NCBI GenBank assembly: GCA_029262515.1
Contig: JAJCZH010000004.1
Span: 1 to 35,862, forward strand
DNA from: Deltaproteobacteria bacterium
GTDB lineage: Bacteria > Desulfobacterota > GWC2-55-46 > JADFVP01
Direction of reading: 5' to 3'
DNA: 35,862 nt
This document shows, piece by piece, positions 3,066 through 9,826 of the stretch. Under the pieces are notes generated by a model. The model was given only the letters and a program-made list of their open reading frames with translations. It had not been told where the DNA came from and made no database searches. Numbering within the stretch: position 1 is the first letter of the stretch; the number at the start of each line of letters is the position of its first letter. The position numbers and the translations under genes were made by a program.

Positions 3066-3716
3066 ATGCTTACAAAAATTAACCCCAGTAGTCACGAAGG
3101 CTATAATAACGTCATGATGGCAACCACTGAACACGATAAGTCCGACCATAGAGTTCTAATTGCTGAAGATAATGCAAAAACGAGACTCTTTCTAAAGAAC
3201 CAGCTCGAGTTGCTCGGCTATACGGTAGCGGGTACCGCAAGCAACGGCCAGGAAGCGGTCGACATGGTTGAAGAGCTTGAGCCGACGCTATTGATCATGG
3301 ATGTCAAGATGCCGAAAAAAGACGGCATAGAGGCTGCCAAAGAGATAAGCGCCAGCAGGACCATACCGATAATTCTTATTACAGGACTCTCATCCGACGA
3401 AATGGCCACCAAGGCTATTGAGGCCGGAGTCTTCTCCTATCTCGTAAAACCGGTCACAAAAAAGCAGCTGGAGCCTGCAATAAAACTCGCCTTAGCGCGC
3501 TACGAAGAGTTCAGCAGCCTCAAGGTCGAGGTGAACGACTTAAAGGACGCCATAGAGACTCGCAAGCTCGTAGAGAAGGCCAAGGGCATTCTCATGAAGA
3601 GATGCAACCTCTCCGAAGAGGACGCCTTTAAGCTGCTACAGGCCCACTCCCAGAAAGAGAATAAAAAGATGCTCGAGATCGCGGAGTCGATAATCTCTGC
3701 AAGCAAGCTGCTCTAA
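3066..3716 (+). CDS. ANTAR-domain response regulator (AmiR/NasR type)
   Basis: A two-domain regulator. The receiver domain (about residues 27-143) has the acidic pocket (AEDN), phosphoacceptor Asp79 in LIMDVKMP, Thr106 and Lys128. A short coiled linker is followed by a C-terminal ANTAR RNA-binding domain (about 150-210) with the typical ETRKLVEKAKGILMKR text. ANTAR proteins act as antiterminators by binding paired RNA hairpins in nitrogen- or carbon-utilisation leaders. No cognate kinase is adjacent. The start is uncertain: a TATAAT at 3060-3065 abuts the ATG at 3066, and residues 1-26 are not part of the receiver, so ATG 3114 or 3117 is a good alternative. The gene is followed by a 500-bp regulatory region for thiamine genes, to which it need not be linked. 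Confidence 0.92.
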   Translation: MLTKINPSSHEGYNNVMMATTEHDKSDHRVLIAEDNAKTRLFLKNQLELLGYTVAGTASNGQEAVDMVEELEPTLLIMDVKMPKKDGIEAAKEISASRTIPIILITGLSSDEMATKAIEAGVFSYLVKPVTKKQLEPAIKLALARYEEFSSLKVEVNDLKDAIETRKLVEKAKGILMKRCNLSEEDAFKLLQAHSQKENKKMLEIAESIISASKLL

Positions 3717-3936: not shown

Positions 3937-3957
3937 TACAGTACTTAAAAATTGAAT

Positions 3958-4054
3958 ATCGCTAGGGGAGTCTTCGATTATTAATGACTGAGAGTACTCA
4001 AAAAGAGTAGACCCTGACGACCTGATCTGGTTAATGCCAGCGTAGGGAAGCGGT
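3958..4054 (+). promoter_or_regulatory. TPP riboswitch (THI element)
   Basis: A thiamine pyrophosphate-sensing aptamer with all its consensus parts. P1 pairs the CGCT at 3960-3963 with AGCG at 4049-4052. AGGGGAGTC followed by GACTGAGA gives the 5' half, including the invariant CUGAGA of the pyrimidine-binding side. TACTC-AAAAA-GAGTA is an intact P3a hairpin. The 3' half CCTGATCTGG-TTAATG-CCAG-CGTAGGGA matches the pyrophosphate-binding side. It lies between a promoter and an intrinsic terminator and upstream of thi genes, so TPP binding presumably favours termination. It is the only TPP element I find in the window. Confidence 0.97.
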
Positions 4055-4085
4055 TTTAGTTGTTTCATAAAGATACTTGTCGAGA

Positions 4086-4122
4086 GGCCGCCCCTTACTT
4101 TTTTTGGGACGGCCCTTTTTTT
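4086..4122 (+). terminator. Riboswitch-associated intrinsic terminator
   Basis: GGCCGCCCC (4086-4094) pairs with GGGACGGCC (4106-4114) with one C/A mismatch, followed by seven T residues (4116-4122). It lies about 30 nt after the TPP aptamer and 99 nt before the first thi start codon, so it is the likely off-switch of the operon. Confidence 0.8.
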
Positions 4123-4220: not shown

Positions 4221-5627
4221 ATGTTAACACTCGATACGATGCAGATAGACGAGACTCTTTTAAAGACCCTTCTGGACGGGAAACCGCCTGAAGAGAGTGT
4301 GGTGCGTCAAGTTCTGGCGTGCGCCGACCATGCGCGCGGCCTGAGTCTAAACGAGACCGCAATTCTGCTTAAGACGGTAGAGCCGGAACTCCTGCGCGAA
4401 ATATTTGAGTGCGCTGGCAGGGTAAAACAGAAGCTCTTCGGGTCGAGAGTAGTCCTCTTCGCCCCGCTCTACCTCTCCAACCACTGCAACAACGGCTGCC
4501 TCTACTGCGGTTTCAGGGCCTCCAACTCTTCGCTTGAAAGAAAAAGCCTGTCACCTGAGCAGGTAGTCAAAGAGGCCCAGGCTCTTGAAGAGATGGGCTT
4601 TAAGCGCATACTGATGGTAACGGGTGAAGACCCGAACTCGTGGTTCGATAACACCATAAAATCGGTTGAAGCCGTCTACACAGAGACCGGCATACGTATA
4701 ATTCATGTAAACGCCCCGACAATGGAGGTAGAGGCCTTTAAGGAACTCAAGAAGGCCGGGGTCGGGGTCTACCAGGCTTTTCAGGAGACGTACCACAGGG
4801 CGACGTACGCCCGTATGCACCCGACGGGTCCGAAACGCGACTACGACTACCGGCTGGGCGCAATGGACCGCGCAATGGAGGCCGGTTTCGGAGACGTAGG
4901 CATCGGGCCGCTTCTCGGGCTCCACGACTTCCGCTACGAGGTCCTCGCCTCGATTGCTCACTCCGCACACCTCTACAGGCGGTTCGGGGCGCATGCCCAT
5001 ACCATCTCGGTACCGCGCCTTAGGCCTGCCGAGGGTTCGGGTCTGGAGAGCGTGCCGAGCCCCGTATCGGACGAGGAGATGAAACTGACTGTAGCGGCGC
5101 TTCGCCTCGCGGTACCGACCACAGGGGTCGTGGTCTCCACAAGAGAGTCGGCAGAGCTTAGAACCGAGCTGCTGCACACGGGCGCTTCTCAACTCAGCGC
5201 TGCTTCGCGCACAGATCCTGGAGGTTACGCGCCGGAAGGCTCTAAGGAGGGTAAAAAGACGCTCGAACAGTTCTCGACCGACGACCACCGCCCGCTCTTG
5301 GAAGTTATGAAGTCGATAGCGAACGAGGGTTTCGTACCGAGCCTCTGCACCACCTGCTACCGCACGGGCCGAACCGGCAGCAACTTCTTCGATACCACGA
5401 TAGAAGGCGACATGGAGACGCGGTGCCGGGCCAATGCGATTTTAAGCCTCAAGGAGTATATGGTCGAACAGGCAGGTAATAACCGGGCCGAAAACGAAGA
5501 ACTGAACAGGCTCTTCGACTCCGTTATCTCCGGCTCCTTCGATGAAGTCAAAGACGAAAGAGTAAAAAGGAGTCTGGCCGAAAAACTGAAAGAGATTGAG
5601 AGCGGAAAACGGGACCTCTTCTTTTAG
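4221..5627 (+). CDS. thiH: HydG-type radical SAM lyase in thiamine operon (ThiH role)
   Basis: A radical SAM tyrosine lyase of 468 residues. Cleavage of tyrosine gives p-cresol and dehydroglycine; in ThiH this feeds thiazole synthesis, in HydG it is broken down to CO and cyanide for the H-cluster. The radical SAM cluster site is CX3CX2C (Cys89, 93, 96). The C-terminal domain carries Cys376-X2-Cys379-X22-Cys402, the exact spacing of the HydG auxiliary cluster, which ThiH lacks; the length also fits HydG rather than ThiH (about 370). Motifs such as AMDRAMEAGFGDVGIG are HydG-like. Yet it is first in a TPP-riboswitch operon before thiS and thiG, and no hydE, hydF or hydrogenase gene is present. 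I infer a HydG-like protein serving as 2-iminoacetate synthase. GGTGAG precedes the ATG by 5 nt. Confidence 0.9.
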   Translation: MLTLDTMQIDETLLKTLLDGKPPEESVVRQVLACADHARGLSLNETAILLKTVEPELLREIFECAGRVKQKLFGSRVVLFAPLYLSNHCNNGCLYCGFRASNSSLERKSLSPEQVVKEAQALEEMGFKRILMVTGEDPNSWFDNTIKSVEAVYTETGIRIIHVNAPTMEVEAFKELKKAGVGVYQAFQETYHRATYARMHPTGPKRDYDYRLGAMDRAMEAGFGDVGIGPLLGLHDFRYEVLASIAHSAHLYRRFGAHAHTISVPRLRPAEGSGLESVPSPVSDEEMKLTVAALRLAVPTTGVVVSTRESAELRTELLHTGASQLSAASRTDPGGYAPEGSKEGKKTLEQFSTDDHRPLLEVMKSIANEGFVPSLCTTCYRTGRTGSNFFDTTIEGDMETRCRANAILSLKEYMVEQAGNNRAENEELNRLFDSVISGSFDEVKDERVKRSLAEKLKEIESGKRDLFF

Positions 5628-5669: not shown

Positions 5670-5870
5670 GTGCAAATACGGATTAACGGTGAGAACCGAG
5701 AAGTAGCTGAAGGCCTAAACCTTGAAACGCTGCTCTGCGACCTCGACATATCGACCGCCGGTACGGCGGTAGAGCTGAACCGCGAGGTAGTGCCAAAAAG
5801 AACGTACGGCGAGACTAGACTCTCGAACGGCGACGTTGTGGAAATAATCCGTATGGTCGGCGGCGGCTGA
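5670..5870 (+). CDS. thiS: Thiamine biosynthesis sulfur carrier ThiS
   Basis: A 66-residue ubiquitin-fold carrier ending in the required Gly-Gly tail (MVGGG). The C-terminal glycine becomes a thiocarboxylate that donates sulfur to ThiG. Length and the NGDVVEIIRMVGGG ending match the family. The start is GTG at 5670, with GAGG a few bases upstream. It lies 42 bp after the radical SAM gene. No thiF adenylyltransferase is visible in the window, so activation must rely on a ThiF or MoeB-like enzyme encoded elsewhere. Confidence 0.93.
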   Translation: MQIRINGENREVAEGLNLETLLCDLDISTAGTAVELNREVVPKRTYGETRLSNGDVVEIIRMVGGG

Positions 5871-6134: not shown

Positions 6135-6908
6135 ATGAGTAATATCTTGAAAGTAGGCAAGCACGAATTCTCATCCCGCCTCATGGTCGGCACCGGCAAG
6201 TACGCCTCGAACGAAGAGATGGTAGAGGCGCATGCGGCCTCAGGGGCCGAAGTGATTACCGTGGCCGTTCGCAGGGTAAACCTCGACAGAACCGGTGAGT
6301 CGATGCTCAACCATATCGACACCAAAAAGTATACGCTGCTGCCGAACACTGCGGCCTGCTTCACGGCAGACGAAGCGATACGCACCTCGCGCCTGGCGCG
6401 CGAAGCGCTCGAGACCGACCTGATTAAACTCGAAGTTATCGGTGACGAGAAGACTCTCTTTCCCGATAACGAGGCACTTTTAGAAGCGGCAGCGGTTCTG
6501 GTAAAGGAGGGCTTTACCGTTCTGCCGTACACCAGCGATGACCCTATCATGGCCCGAAAACTCGAAGACATCGGCTGCGCAGCGGTTATGCCTATGGCTG
6601 CGCCGATAGGCAGCGGGCTCGGGGTCTGCAACCAGTACAACATACGCATAATACTCGAAGCCGCTTCGGTGCCTATCATCGTGGACGCCGGAGTCGGCAC
6701 GGCCTCTGACGCGGCCCTAGCCATGGAACTCGGCTGCGACGGCCTGTTGATGAATACCGCAATAGCCGGGGCTAAAAATCCGGTGGCAATGGCGCGCGCA
6801 ATGAAGCTCGCCACAGAGGCCGGAAGGCTCGCATACGAATCCGGCAGGATAGAGAGAAAACTGTACGCAACGGCATCAAGCCCGGTTGACGGGCTTATAG
6901 GCGCCTAG
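6135..6908 (+). CDS. thiG: Thiazole synthase ThiG
   Basis: A 257-residue TIM-barrel enzyme that condenses deoxyxylulose 5-phosphate, dehydroglycine and ThiS thiocarboxylate into the thiazole phosphate. Visible family features are the N-terminal [10 protein letters not shown], the Schiff-base lysine region [30 protein letters not shown], and the phosphate-binding [25 protein letters not shown] sits about 9 nt before the ATG. The dehydroglycine would come from the radical SAM enzyme at 4221. Full length, no anomalies. The gene is followed closely by lgt, 26 bp downstream. Confidence 0.97.
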
Positions 6909-6934: not shown

Positions 6935-7765
6935 TTGCACCCAATACTCTTTCAATTCGGCTTTATAGAAATCCGCTTCTACGGTCTTATGTACGTGGTA
7001 GCGATACTCGTCGGCACGGCGCTTATTCGGCGCGAGGTAGTCCGGCGCTCTATAGACCTTACAAAAGAGTCGGTACAAAACTTCATAATCCTGGTCGTTG
7101 TGGGCGGGGTCGTAGGCGCGCGTATCTACTACGTTATCTTCAACCCGGCTTTCTATATCGCCAATCCGGCAGAAATCCCGGCGATCTGGCACGGGGGCCT
7201 TGCGATACACGGCGGGCTTATCGGCGGCATTACGGTTGCCTTCTTCTATCTCAGGAAACACCGAATACGCTACTGGCAGATGGCTGACGCAGTGGCCCCT
7301 GCGATAATTCTCGGGCAGACCTTCGGGCGTTTCGGCAACTTCATGAACGGAGACGCGCACGGAAGGCCGACGGAGATGGCGTGGGGAATAATATTTCCGC
7401 CCACCTCTATAGCGGGGACCGAGTTTCCCGGAATTCCGCTCCACCCGACCATGCTCTACGAGCTGGTAATTAATTTTTCTATCTTTTTGCTTCTCTGGTT
7501 CGTGCTTAAAGAGCGGAGTCATAAAAACGGTTTTATCTTCGCCTCCTACATACTGCTCTACTCGGCCGGCAGGTTCGTTGTCGAGCACTTCAGGGCAGAC
7601 AGCCTGATGCTCGGGCCCCTGAAGGCGGCGCAGGCCCTAAGTTTAGCGATCATAATTATAACCGGGGCCTTAATTATCGGTTATAAACTCTGGGGCAGCC
7701 CGACGGAGCCGGAGAGTATGAAGCTCAAGAGCCTAAAGAGAAAGAGTTCCCGAGGGGCGCAGTAG
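6935..7765 (+). CDS. lgt: Prolipoprotein diacylglyceryl transferase Lgt
   Basis: A 276-residue inner-membrane enzyme that transfers diacylglycerol from phosphatidylglycerol to the lipobox cysteine of prolipoproteins. It has about seven hydrophobic segments, the HGGLIGG motif (about 92-98) and the Lgt signature GRFGNFMNGDAHGRPT (131-146), plus the C-terminal RFVVEHFRAD. The start is TTG at 6935, well supported by AGGAGG about 7 nt upstream; no ATG fits. The stop codon directly abuts the thiE start codon, so the two are probably translationally coupled. Its place inside a TPP-controlled thiamine operon is unusual. The tail after the last helix is Lys/Ser-rich. Confidence 0.96.
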   Translation: MHPILFQFGFIEIRFYGLMYVVAILVGTALIRREVVRRSIDLTKESVQNFIILVVVGGVVGARIYYVIFNPAFYIANPAEIPAIWHGGLAIHGGLIGGITVAFFYLRKHRIRYWQMADAVAPAIILGQTFGRFGNFMNGDAHGRPTEMAWGIIFPPTSIAGTEFPGIPLHPTMLYELVINFSIFLLLWFVLKERSHKNGFIFASYILLYSAGRFVVEHFRADSLMLGPLKAAQALSLAIIIITGALIIGYKLWGSPTEPESMKLKSLKRKSSRGAQ

Positions 7766-8473
7766 ATGAGCCTGTTGAATAAGTCGGAAAGGGCGAACAG
7801 GATTAAGGGCTTCTTTCCGGCTAAAACCGGTTATGGATTATATCTTATAACCGACGGGTCTGTAAAAGACGAACTTTCAGAAACAAAGCTCTTGAGCAGA
7901 GTGGAAGAGGCGCTTAAGGGCGGGGCCGGGTTCATACAGTTAAGGGAGAAGGTTCTCGATACCGAGAGACTTAAAGGGCTTGCTATCAGGATGCGCGCAC
8001 TTACTCTCTCTTACTCGGCGGGCCTTATAATAAATAGCGATATTACGGTTGCAATAGCCTCCGGGGCCGACGGTCTGCACCTTCCGTCAACAGGTTTCGG
8101 TATAAGTGCCGCACGTGAGGGCTTAGGCGATGAGGCCCTTATAGGAGTCTCAACCCACTCAATAGAAGAGGCCAAGAGGGCACAGAGAGAAGGTGCGGAC
8201 TTTATAACCTTCGGGCCGGTCTACTATACGGAGTCGAAAGCAGAGTACGGCGAGCCGATCGGGCTGAAGAAGCTTAAAGACACGGTAGACAGACTCGACA
8301 TACCGGTCTTCGGACTTGGCGGTATAGGCAGAGCGCAGGTTACCGAGGTTCTCTCTACGGGCGCCGGGGGGGTCGCCCTTATATCGGCAATCCTGTCAAG
8401 GCCGGATATACTTGCTGCGACACGCGAGATAATAGATCAACTTGACAAACAGAAACGGGTTGCATCGATTTAA
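7766..8473 (+). CDS. thiE: Thiamine phosphate synthase ThiE
   Basis: A 235-residue TIM-barrel enzyme that joins hydroxymethylpyrimidine diphosphate and thiazole phosphate into thiamine phosphate. Family motifs are LYLITDG (about 26-32), GGAGFIQLREK, the phosphate/Mg site NSDITVAIASGADGLHL, GVSTHSIEEA, DFITFGPVYYTESK and FGLGGIG. It starts on the base after the lgt stop. No thiD kinase is fused to it or lies next to it, so HMP kinase must be encoded elsewhere. The first 20 residues are an extension beyond the usual ThiE start. Confidence 0.95.
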   Translation: MSLLNKSERANRIKGFFPAKTGYGLYLITDGSVKDELSETKLLSRVEEALKGGAGFIQLREKVLDTERLKGLAIRMRALTLSYSAGLIINSDITVAIASGADGLHLPSTGFGISAAREGLGDEALIGVSTHSIEEAKRAQREGADFITFGPVYYTESKAEYGEPIGLKKLKDTVDRLDIPVFGLGGIGRAQVTEVLSTGAGGVALISAILSRPDILAATREIIDQLDKQKRVASI

Positions 8474-8545: not shown

Positions 8546-9826
8546 ATGACACAGCTTGACTTCGCCCGCAAGGGTGAGATAACCGAAGAGATGAGAACCG
8601 CTGCCGCATTTGAGGGCGTTGAGCCGGAGTTTATACGCGCGTCGATTGAGGCCGGAACAGTCGTCGTCATACGGAATAAGCTGCACCGCTCGATAAAAGC
8701 CTTGGCCGTCGGCACGGGCCTGAAGACCAAGGTAAATGCCAACATAGGCTCTTCTCAGGATCATATCTCACCGGAAGAGGAGCTCGAAAAGCTCAGAGCC
8801 GCCATGGAGGCCGGGGCCGATGCGGTAATGGATCTATCCACCGGGGGCGACGTCGATGCCATAAGAAAGGCGATAATGGCCGAGTCTACCGTGCCGATAG
8901 GCACTGTGCCTATCTACCAGGCGGCGCTGGAGTCGAAACAGAAGGGTAAATCTTTTGTAGAACTCACGGCAGACGACATCTTCGAAGTAATCGAAAAGCA
9001 GGCCGAGGACGGCGTCGATTTCATGACAATCCATTCGGGCGTTACTCAGGTATCACTGGAGCGGATAAAGAACGAAGGACGCATAATGGGCGTCGTCAGC
9101 AGGGGTGGGGCGCTTACGGCGGAGTGGATGAAGTACAACAAGAAAGAGAACCCGCTCTTTGAGCAGTTCGACAGGATGATCGCTATCGCCAAGAAGTACG
9201 ACGTTATCCTGAGCCTCGGCGACGGGCTCCGTCCGGGCTGCCTGGCCGATGCCACGGACAAGGGGCAGGTACAGGAGCTTATTATTCTCGGCGAACTTAC
9301 CAAGAGGGCGCGTAAAGCCGGAGTACAGGTCATGGTAGAGGGGCCGGGGCACGTGCCGATCGACCAGATAGAGGCGAACATACTGCTGCAGAAACGGCTC
9401 TGCAACGGCGCGCCCTTTTATGTGCTTGGCCCGCTCGTAACCGACATTGCTCCAGGATACGACCACATCACCTCAGCCATAGGCGGGGCCATCGCGGCCA
9501 AGGCCGGGGCAGACTTTCTCTGCTACGTAACGCCTTCCGAGCACCTGCGGCTGCCAACACCGGAGGACGTAACCGAGGGCGTTATCGCAGCGCGTATAGC
9601 GGCCCATGCCGGTGATATAGGCAAAAAGACCAAGGGAGCGATGGAGCAAGACATAGAACTCTCTCACGCACGCAAGGCGCTCGACTGGGATGCCCAGATA
9701 AGGCTCTCTATCGACCCTGTAAAGGCCGGACGAATCCGCGCCGAGAGCCCGCCTGAAGACGCTGACGTCTGCACCATGTGCGGTTCGTTATGCGCGATAA
9801 AAATCGGAGATGAGGAGCTAGTTTAA
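8546..9826 (+). CDS. thiC: Phosphomethylpyrimidine synthase ThiC
   Basis: A radical SAM enzyme converting aminoimidazole ribotide to HMP phosphate. At 426 residues it is the short form, lacking the long N-terminal domain of E. coli ThiC. Family text includes GLKTKVNANIGSS, MDLSTGGD, VPIGTVPIYQA, DFMTIHSGVT, SLGDGLRPG, VEGPGHVPIDQI and GADFLCYVTPSEHL. The C-terminal cluster site is Cys409-X2-Cys412-X3-Cys416 (CTMCGSLC), one residue shorter than the CX2CX4C of long ThiC; I believe this is normal for the short clade. AAGGAG precedes the ATG. The 72-bp gap after thiE has no second riboswitch, so it should depend on the TPP switch at 3958. Confidence 0.97.
   Translation: MTQLDFARKGEITEEMRTAAAFEGVEPEFIRASIEAGTVVVIRNKLHRSIKALAVGTGLKTKVNANIGSSQDHISPEEELEKLRAAMEAGADAVMDLSTGGDVDAIRKAIMAESTVPIGTVPIYQAALESKQKGKSFVELTADDIFEVIEKQAEDGVDFMTIHSGVTQVSLERIKNEGRIMGVVSRGGALTAEWMKYNKKENPLFEQFDRMIAIAKKYDVILSLGDGLRPGCLADATDKGQVQELIILGELTKRARKAGVQVMVEGPGHVPIDQIEANILLQKRLCNGAPFYVLGPLVTDIAPGYDHITSAIGGAIAAKAGADFLCYVTPSEHLRLPTPEDVTEGVIAARIAAHAGDIGKKTKGAMEQDIELSHARKALDWDAQIRLSIDPVKAGRIRAESPPEDADVCTMCGSLCAIKIGDEELV

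Follow-up and report, generated by a model that had tools for sequence, protein, structure and literature searches.

The gene described here lies at positions 4221 to 5627 of the window, the whole stretch of 35,862 nucleotides that was analyzed. Its open reading frame encodes a protein of 468 amino acids, and it heads a set of thiamine biosynthesis genes behind a TPP riboswitch. The features of the locus are as follows.

3954 to 4065, forward strand: TPP riboswitch aptamer, RF00059 (cmscan, 75.1 bits against a gathering score of 54.3; full model, 1 to 105).
4082 to 4122, forward strand: terminator-like GC hairpin followed by a T-run, in the interval between aptamer and gene (fold MFE of −17 kcal/mol, z of −3.3).
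4221 to 5627, forward strand: gene for a radical SAM enzyme of HydG architecture, thiamine-linked clade (TIGR03955, tree, and operon conservation).
4485 to 4508, forward strand: radical SAM CX3CX2C site, codons of C89, C93, and C96 (from the sequence; invariant in 64/64 thiamine-linked proteins, 27/27 HydGs, and 7/7 ThiHs).
4998 to 5000, forward strand: codon of H260, aligned with TiHydG His265 (His in 64/64 thiamine-linked proteins and 27/27 HydGs; Val or Ile in ThiH).
5346 to 5426, forward strand: auxiliary cluster site CX2CX22C, codons of C376, C379, and C402 (from the sequence; in 63/63 whole thiamine-linked proteins, none in ThiH).
5670 to 5870, forward strand: thiS, sulfur carrier protein, with a GTG start and a GGG end (TIGR01683, 67.1 bits; cut-off, 37.45).
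6135 to 6908, forward strand: thiG, thiazole synthase, of the type that does not partner ThiH (PF05690, 371 bits; PDB matches and ThiG tree).
6935 to 7765, forward strand: lgt, prolipoprotein diacylglyceryl transferase, within the thi operon (TIGR00544, 214.9 bits; cut-off, 118.9; same position across the class).
7766 to 8473, forward strand: thiE, thiamine phosphate synthase (TIGR00693, 169.9 bits; cut-off, 145.1).
8546 to 9826, forward strand: thiC, phosphomethylpyrimidine synthase (NF009895, 657 bits; cut-off, 410).

The protein scored 424.8 bits against the NCBIfam HydG model TIGR03955, above its cut-off of 312.15, and 304.3 bits against the ThiH model TIGR02351, which is below the cut-off of 380. 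Pfam models placed a radical SAM domain and a BATS domain in it. The nearest solved structures were the HydGs 4WCX (402.6 bits) and 4RTB (336.7 bits), followed by the ThiH 7PD1 (191.9 bits); these come from Thermoanaerobacter italicus, Carboxydothermus, and Thermosinus, respectively (PMC6212873, PMC9046217). Identity was 42 to 43% with both HydGs and 37% with TcThiH. H260 aligned with His265 of TiHydG, which we take to be a ligand of the dangler iron; TiHydG numbering was fixed by setting the histidine of HTISVPR as His265. The original prediction of a HydG architecture with CX3CX2C and an exact CX2CX22C was thus correct, coordinates included. The combination of CX3CX2C and a C-terminal CX2CX22C has been termed essential for [FeFe]-hydrogenase maturation (PMC9431212). 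A scan of genome contigs with the protein alone returned two sequences, a near relative (L011) and a more remote ThiH (L012).

The thiamine context also proved to be as predicted, with the riboswitch upstream and thiS, thiG, thiE, and thiC downstream, and with lgt as a further gene that the prediction had not listed. A simple consensus scan for an intrinsic terminator at 4082 to 4122 returned none, its limits being exceeded by the 11-nucleotide loop; folding shows the hairpin, which is probably the expression platform of the riboswitch. As expected, an aptamer followed by a hairpin and T-run fits transcriptional attenuation, and the same control arrangement has been described for other deltaproteobacterial thiamine operons (PMC545781). 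Directly upstream of the riboswitch, at 3066 to 3716 of the window, lies a gene for a response regulator with an ANTAR RNA-binding domain. ANTAR proteins are antiterminators, and a link between this gene and the hairpin is conceivable.

Next, the genome that carries the window was searched for the genes of H-cluster synthesis and for other sources of dehydroglycine. The assembly comprises 2.5 Mb in 38 contigs and is 98.45% complete with 0% contamination. Against it, the HydG model matched the gene at 4221 to 5627 and a single 18-bit sequence, and nothing else. E. coli ThiH is picked up by the same model in control genomes, which means that this search would have revealed any ThiH or additional HydG; no ThiH was seen in the genome. 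No HydF above the cut-off was found there (best score, 83 bits against 325.55), nor any match to the [FeFe]-hydrogenase large subunit, PF02906. HydE proteins give 42 to 64 bits against the HydG model, and from the matches to that model HydE is probably absent from the genome as well. ThiO was found neither in this genome nor in 60 relatives (E of 1e-20). On the [NiFe] side, the genome (G000) has one NiFeSe_Hases match (C8:243356, 62.6 bits). Hence hydE, hydF, and hydA together with a separate canonical ThiH, the finding that the original prediction named as evidence against a thiamine role, did not turn up in a 98%-complete genome, the case of HydE being indirect. Its second option, that the organism ties H-cluster synthesis to thiamine status, is excluded for this genome by the lack of HydF, [FeFe]-hydrogenase, ThiH, and ThiO, a pattern that is the same across the class.

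The class-wide pattern was read from 117 related genomes, among which members of the class typically hold one HydG-type gene (about 380 to 450 bits) adjoining thiG. In fifty class relatives this gene sits in the thiamine operon; HydF and HydA were absent from all fifty and were found nowhere in the class. The gene order HydG-thiS-thiG-lgt-thiE-thiC is kept in nearly all class loci read, with lgt a stable neighbor between thiG and thiE (6935 to 7765 in the window) throughout the class. Most apparent exceptions to the order are contig ends (G001, G002, G010, G040, and G055); G017 has a partial HydG-type gene and no thiG match, and three genomes (G004, G038, and G048) lack thiG and the HydG-type gene alike. 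A TPP riboswitch above the gathering score lay just upstream of the HydG-type gene in 14 of 15 relatives tested. This recurrence, together with the presence of CX2CX22C in every whole thiamine-linked homologue, rejects chance as the origin of the motif and of its riboswitch context. Beyond the class, the same protein heads thiS-thiG-thiE-thiC in four other families of the phylum (f39, f53, f57, and f97), where lgt is missing. Within f39, nine genomes carry the HydG type, four carry a ThiH-level match instead (beside thiG in two of these), and none carries both.

An even sample of 395 genomes was used to survey the phylum. Twenty-nine genomes had a thiG-linked HydG-type gene, 28 of them by position and one (G104) with both genes at contig ends and a protein that falls inside the clade. 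HydF occurred in 0 of these 29 and in 46 of 50 genomes with another HydG above about 420 bits (two of the 46 HydFs being just below the cut-off); Fisher's exact test gave a p of 1.2e-17, a value that overstates independence since the genomes are akin, and the pattern appears in several families. In three genomes that have both HydF and thiG (G095, G113, and G136), inspection of the loci showed a separate ThiH beside thiG. In an earlier genome profiling of HydG and ThiH, HydG was nearly always accompanied by HydF (179 of 180 genomes) and no thiamine type was described (PMC3226654), and a literature search that took in few subscription papers returned no earlier report of one. Of the 81 genomes in our sample that have a protein above the TIGR03955 cut-off, 29 carry the thiamine type. 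The curated model therefore mislabels these proteins and is an unsafe marker of [FeFe]-hydrogenase maturation.

Phylogenetic analysis placed the 64 thiamine-linked proteins in one clade, with 99 SH-aLRT support in a tree of 111 rows and 99 bootstrap/97 SH-aLRT support in a tree of 81 rows. The remaining HydGs, those from HydF genomes among them, formed a second clade (97/81), and ThiH formed a third (100/100), both in the 81-row tree. The protein at 4221 to 5627 thus lies outside the clade of HydGs from HydF-bearing genomes and outside the ThiH clade. The final tree was built without 4RTB and the f52 paralogues described below, which have long branches. As the tree is unrooted, ThiH, the thiamine type, and the other HydGs are three clans, and the tree gives no order for the thiamine and H-cluster roles.

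The residues of the active site were then compared. The tyrosine-binding residues of TcThiH are T299, R300, R306, S318, and S321 (PMC9046217), and their counterparts T307, R308, R314, S326, and S329 are invariant in 64/64 thiamine-linked proteins. ThiH E158, which contacts the tyrosine carboxylate, is replaced by N164 in thiamine-linked proteins, as in most HydGs. A Glu at TcThiH position 128, TiHydG position 133, has been named as carboxylate binding in HydG (PMC9046217). All thiamine-linked members have Val at position 133 and so lack this Glu, as do 16 of 27 reference HydGs; we dropped the residue as a HydG marker, since Val occupies the position in 11 of the 27 and in the solved 4RTB. The auxiliary cysteines retain their 2/22 spacing in 63/63 whole thiamine-linked members from five or more families (one further row is broken by the assembly), and every whole member has H260 and R381/R384 (the YR/R384 motif).

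Alignment columns were ranked by their divergence between the thiamine-linked proteins and the 27 reference HydGs. Nine columns showed complete or near-complete separation (F127, I160, H162, V183, H258, T300, V304, L375, and F390). Every one of the 64 thiamine-linked proteins has 0/9 HydG-type residues at these positions and every one of the 27 reference HydGs has 9/9, a split that is partly by construction because the positions were picked on the same two groups. Sequences outside the selection act as HydG: NiFe-linked HydGs have 9/9 in six of seven cases and 8/9 in one, and two unassigned HydGs have 9/9.

The location of the nine positions was deduced from strand register, in which residues an even number apart in a barrel strand face the same side. 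By this rule, seven of the nine lie an even number of positions away from a residue that is known, or can be expected, to point into the lumen (F127 relative to V133, I160 and H162 to N164, V183 to F187, H258 to H260, and T300 and V304 to R308). These are mostly N-terminal on their strands, which would put them at the bottom of the barrel. The second HydG cluster is located at the base of the barrel cavity, with about 2.4 nm separating it from the first cluster (PMC6212873). As for the other two, L375 directly precedes C376 and F390 is within the same C-terminal domain. Lumen-facing positions were more divergent than outward positions (mean of 0.55 versus 0.28; permutation p of 0.015). The nine positions would therefore line the barrel tunnel and the surroundings of the auxiliary cluster. 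With the tyrosine pocket invariant and the switched positions mapped in this way to the barrel bottom and the C-terminal domain, the tyrosine site appears untouched, and both the path to the auxiliary cluster and the shell around it appear changed. The expectation of a determinant that sets the protein apart from true HydG was borne out at the level of sequence, in nine positions that probably lie in the tunnel and auxiliary pocket.

The ThiG partner was also characterized. The best PDB matches of the window's ThiG were a ThiG at 318 bits and one at 285 bits, entries that we take to be from Pseudomonas and Bacillus, respectively. In the ThiG tree, ThiGs adjoining ThiH fall on one side (99%), and those linked to the HydG type cluster with the Bacillus and Pseudomonas ThiGs, which are presumably partners of ThiO, and with ThiGs from genomes that lack a tyrosine lyase. 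Because the HydG-type-linked ThiGs stand apart from the ThiH partners, ThiG and lyase seem to have been swapped as a pair; the simplest story is that an oxygen-independent lyase was recruited to a ThiG not adapted to ThiH. Loci L190 to L201 come from genomes that have thiS-thiG-thiE but in which neither HydG nor ThiH was matched at any place and no ThiO was evident next to thiG. Geobacter has likewise been described without thiH (PMC545781, PMC3543383).

HydG and ThiH act on the same substrate, with a product that leads to CO and cyanide in one case and to vitamin B1 in the other. The thiamine type shares with HydG (TIGR03955; 4WCX and 4RTB) its full-length architecture, both cysteine motifs, the His265 equivalent, the tyrosine pocket, and the Asn at the E158 position; unlike HydG, it has a thiamine operon with a TPP riboswitch, a separate clade, and nine switched positions, and it lacks HydE, HydF, and HydA. 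With ThiH (TIGR02351; 7PD1) it shares the tyrosine pocket, a place beside thiS and thiG, and TPP regulation, whereas ThiH has E158 and no C-terminal cluster domain, and the thiamine type scores below the ThiH cut-off, falls outside the ThiH clade, and is paired with another type of ThiG. ThiO would supply the same product, dehydroglycine, to ThiG, and its partner ThiGs cluster with the window's ThiG, but ThiO is a flavoprotein that requires O2 and is absent here. The protein differs from HydG in context, clade, and diagnostic residues and from ThiH in score, domain, E158, and clade. We regard it as a tyrosine-lyase variant, probably ThiH-like in role and HydG-like in build.

Together, these results make it highly likely that the enzyme at 4221 to 5627 serves thiamine synthesis and that dehydroglycine is mainly spared from conversion to CO and cyanide. 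On the best reading, it would be an oxygen-independent 2-iminoacetate (dehydroglycine) synthase standing in for ThiH, from a branch of the HydG/ThiH tyrosine-lyase family that is devoted to thiamine synthesis. Low TPP would let the riboswitch permit transcription of the operon. Radical SAM chemistry would then cleave L-tyrosine to p-cresol and dehydroglycine, and ThiG would join dehydroglycine with DXP and ThiS-thiocarboxylate to form the thiazole. A retuned tunnel and cluster shell would keep dehydroglycine from being broken, or mainly broken, to CO and cyanide. The enzyme would thus take the place of ThiH (and ThiO) in this bacterium and its class, as well as in several further families of the phylum. 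The first option of the original prediction, in which a HydG-type protein keeps its auxiliary cluster and supplies the dehydroglycine for the thiazole, is supported by the genome evidence, namely, the lack of HydF, [FeFe]-hydrogenase, ThiH, and ThiO here and in the class alike. Counting against the thiamine reading are the HydG-type N164 in place of ThiH E158, the Val at position 133, and the retention of the auxiliary cysteines, H260, and the YR/R384 motif, which are more than a simple ThiH would need.

An Fe-S cluster very probably remains bound at the C-terminal CX2CX22C site. The clade would pair the auxiliary site of HydG with the B1 pathway in genomes that lack H-cluster machinery, and it offers nine candidate determinant positions. 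What the site does is a matter for more tentative proposals. Possibly, although we put this forward with some reserve, the site works in B1 synthesis, its open iron or the dangler iron at H260 holding dehydroglycine intact and handing it to ThiG. If so, the clade would represent a third class of tyrosine lyases, intermediate between ThiH and HydG, and a site able to form CO and cyanide would be present but switched off by a few tunnel residues.

Rather unlikely is an auxiliary cluster that is an inert structural leftover, which would make the enzyme functionally a long-tailed ThiH. The conserved tyrosine pocket and the clear thiamine context agree with this view. If it had no use, the site should have decayed in at least a few lineages, yet all 63 whole members keep the cysteines at their exact spacing, H260, and R381/R384; a structural role would preserve the site too.

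A bifunctional enzyme, delivering dehydroglycine to ThiG and also forming CO at the auxiliary cluster, for instance for the organism's own [NiFe]-hydrogenase-like protein, is distinctly improbable. The auxiliary site is complete, the genome has its NiFeSe_Hases match, and related HydGs occur in [NiFe]-hydrogenase loci, but the HydG type tracks thiG and not NiFe: G003 (99% complete) has the HydG type and no NiFe match, and G004 and G048 (97 to 100%) have NiFe and neither the HydG type nor thiG. Moreover, NiFe-linked HydGs keep eight or nine of the nine HydG-type residues and the thiamine-linked clade keeps none. A NiFe hydrogenase as the reason for the retained cluster was rejected on the same grounds.

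Auxiliary clusters serve as sulfur donors in LipA-type enzymes. With that precedent, and with thiF missing from the operon, the cluster could be supposed to give sulfur or act otherwise in thiazole formation, for example by replacing part of the ThiF/IscS route, but a thiS with an intact GG tail points to ordinary ThiS thiocarboxylate chemistry, and we consider this very doubtful. Hardly credible is a true HydG that makes the [FeFe]-hydrogenase H-cluster under thiamine control: a score above the curated cut-off and an intact auxiliary motif would suit it, but thiG-linked copies never occur alongside HydF, and the absence of HydF, [FeFe]-hydrogenase, and (by indirect evidence) HydE refutes it for this genome unless all three genes lie in the missing ∼2%, against which the class pattern speaks.

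Other groups of HydG relatives were encountered in the survey. Seven HydGs are paired with a HypC-HydE fusion (L051, 7403 to 10296; L052, 405 to 3127; L053, 9075 to 11946; L054, 8725 to 11422; L055, 9058 to 11694; L056, 1251 to 3949; and L162, 7566 to 10243) and split over two clades. HypC Cys2 is kept in most of the fusions, and the HydE part of the three scanned scored 269 to 277 bits, above the HydE cut-off. Four of the seven loci hold [NiFe]-hydrogenase or Hyp genes, including subunits, a HycI-type protease, and a HypB-like protein. Like the thiamine type, these are HydG-family proteins in genomes without HydF or HydA; they differ in the fusion linkage, in the [NiFe]-hydrogenase genes of those four loci, and in having kept the HydG-type residues. 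The contrast suggests that the HydG family is used in at least three ways.

Three HydGs from HydF genomes (L108 in G089, L188 in G259, and L189 in G342) have a changed tyrosine pocket (T312A, S331D, and S334T in TiHydG numbers), and two of them, including L108, have Gly at the second auxiliary cysteine (CTAGYR). Family f52 has a third HydG-like paralogue (L165 to L168) on a very long branch, in which CX2CX22C is kept and the tyrosine pocket is lost (R314W and S326L). In some genomes it occurs beside a true HydG and ThiH, and the surroundings of L165 and L166 include a gene that is likely to encode alanine dehydrogenase. Finally, [NiFe]-hydrogenase large subunit genes whose reading frames continue across one or two TGA codons, which probably encode selenocysteine, were seen in G037 (C49:63924-65381) and also in G004, G005, G007, G009, G056, G057, and G059.
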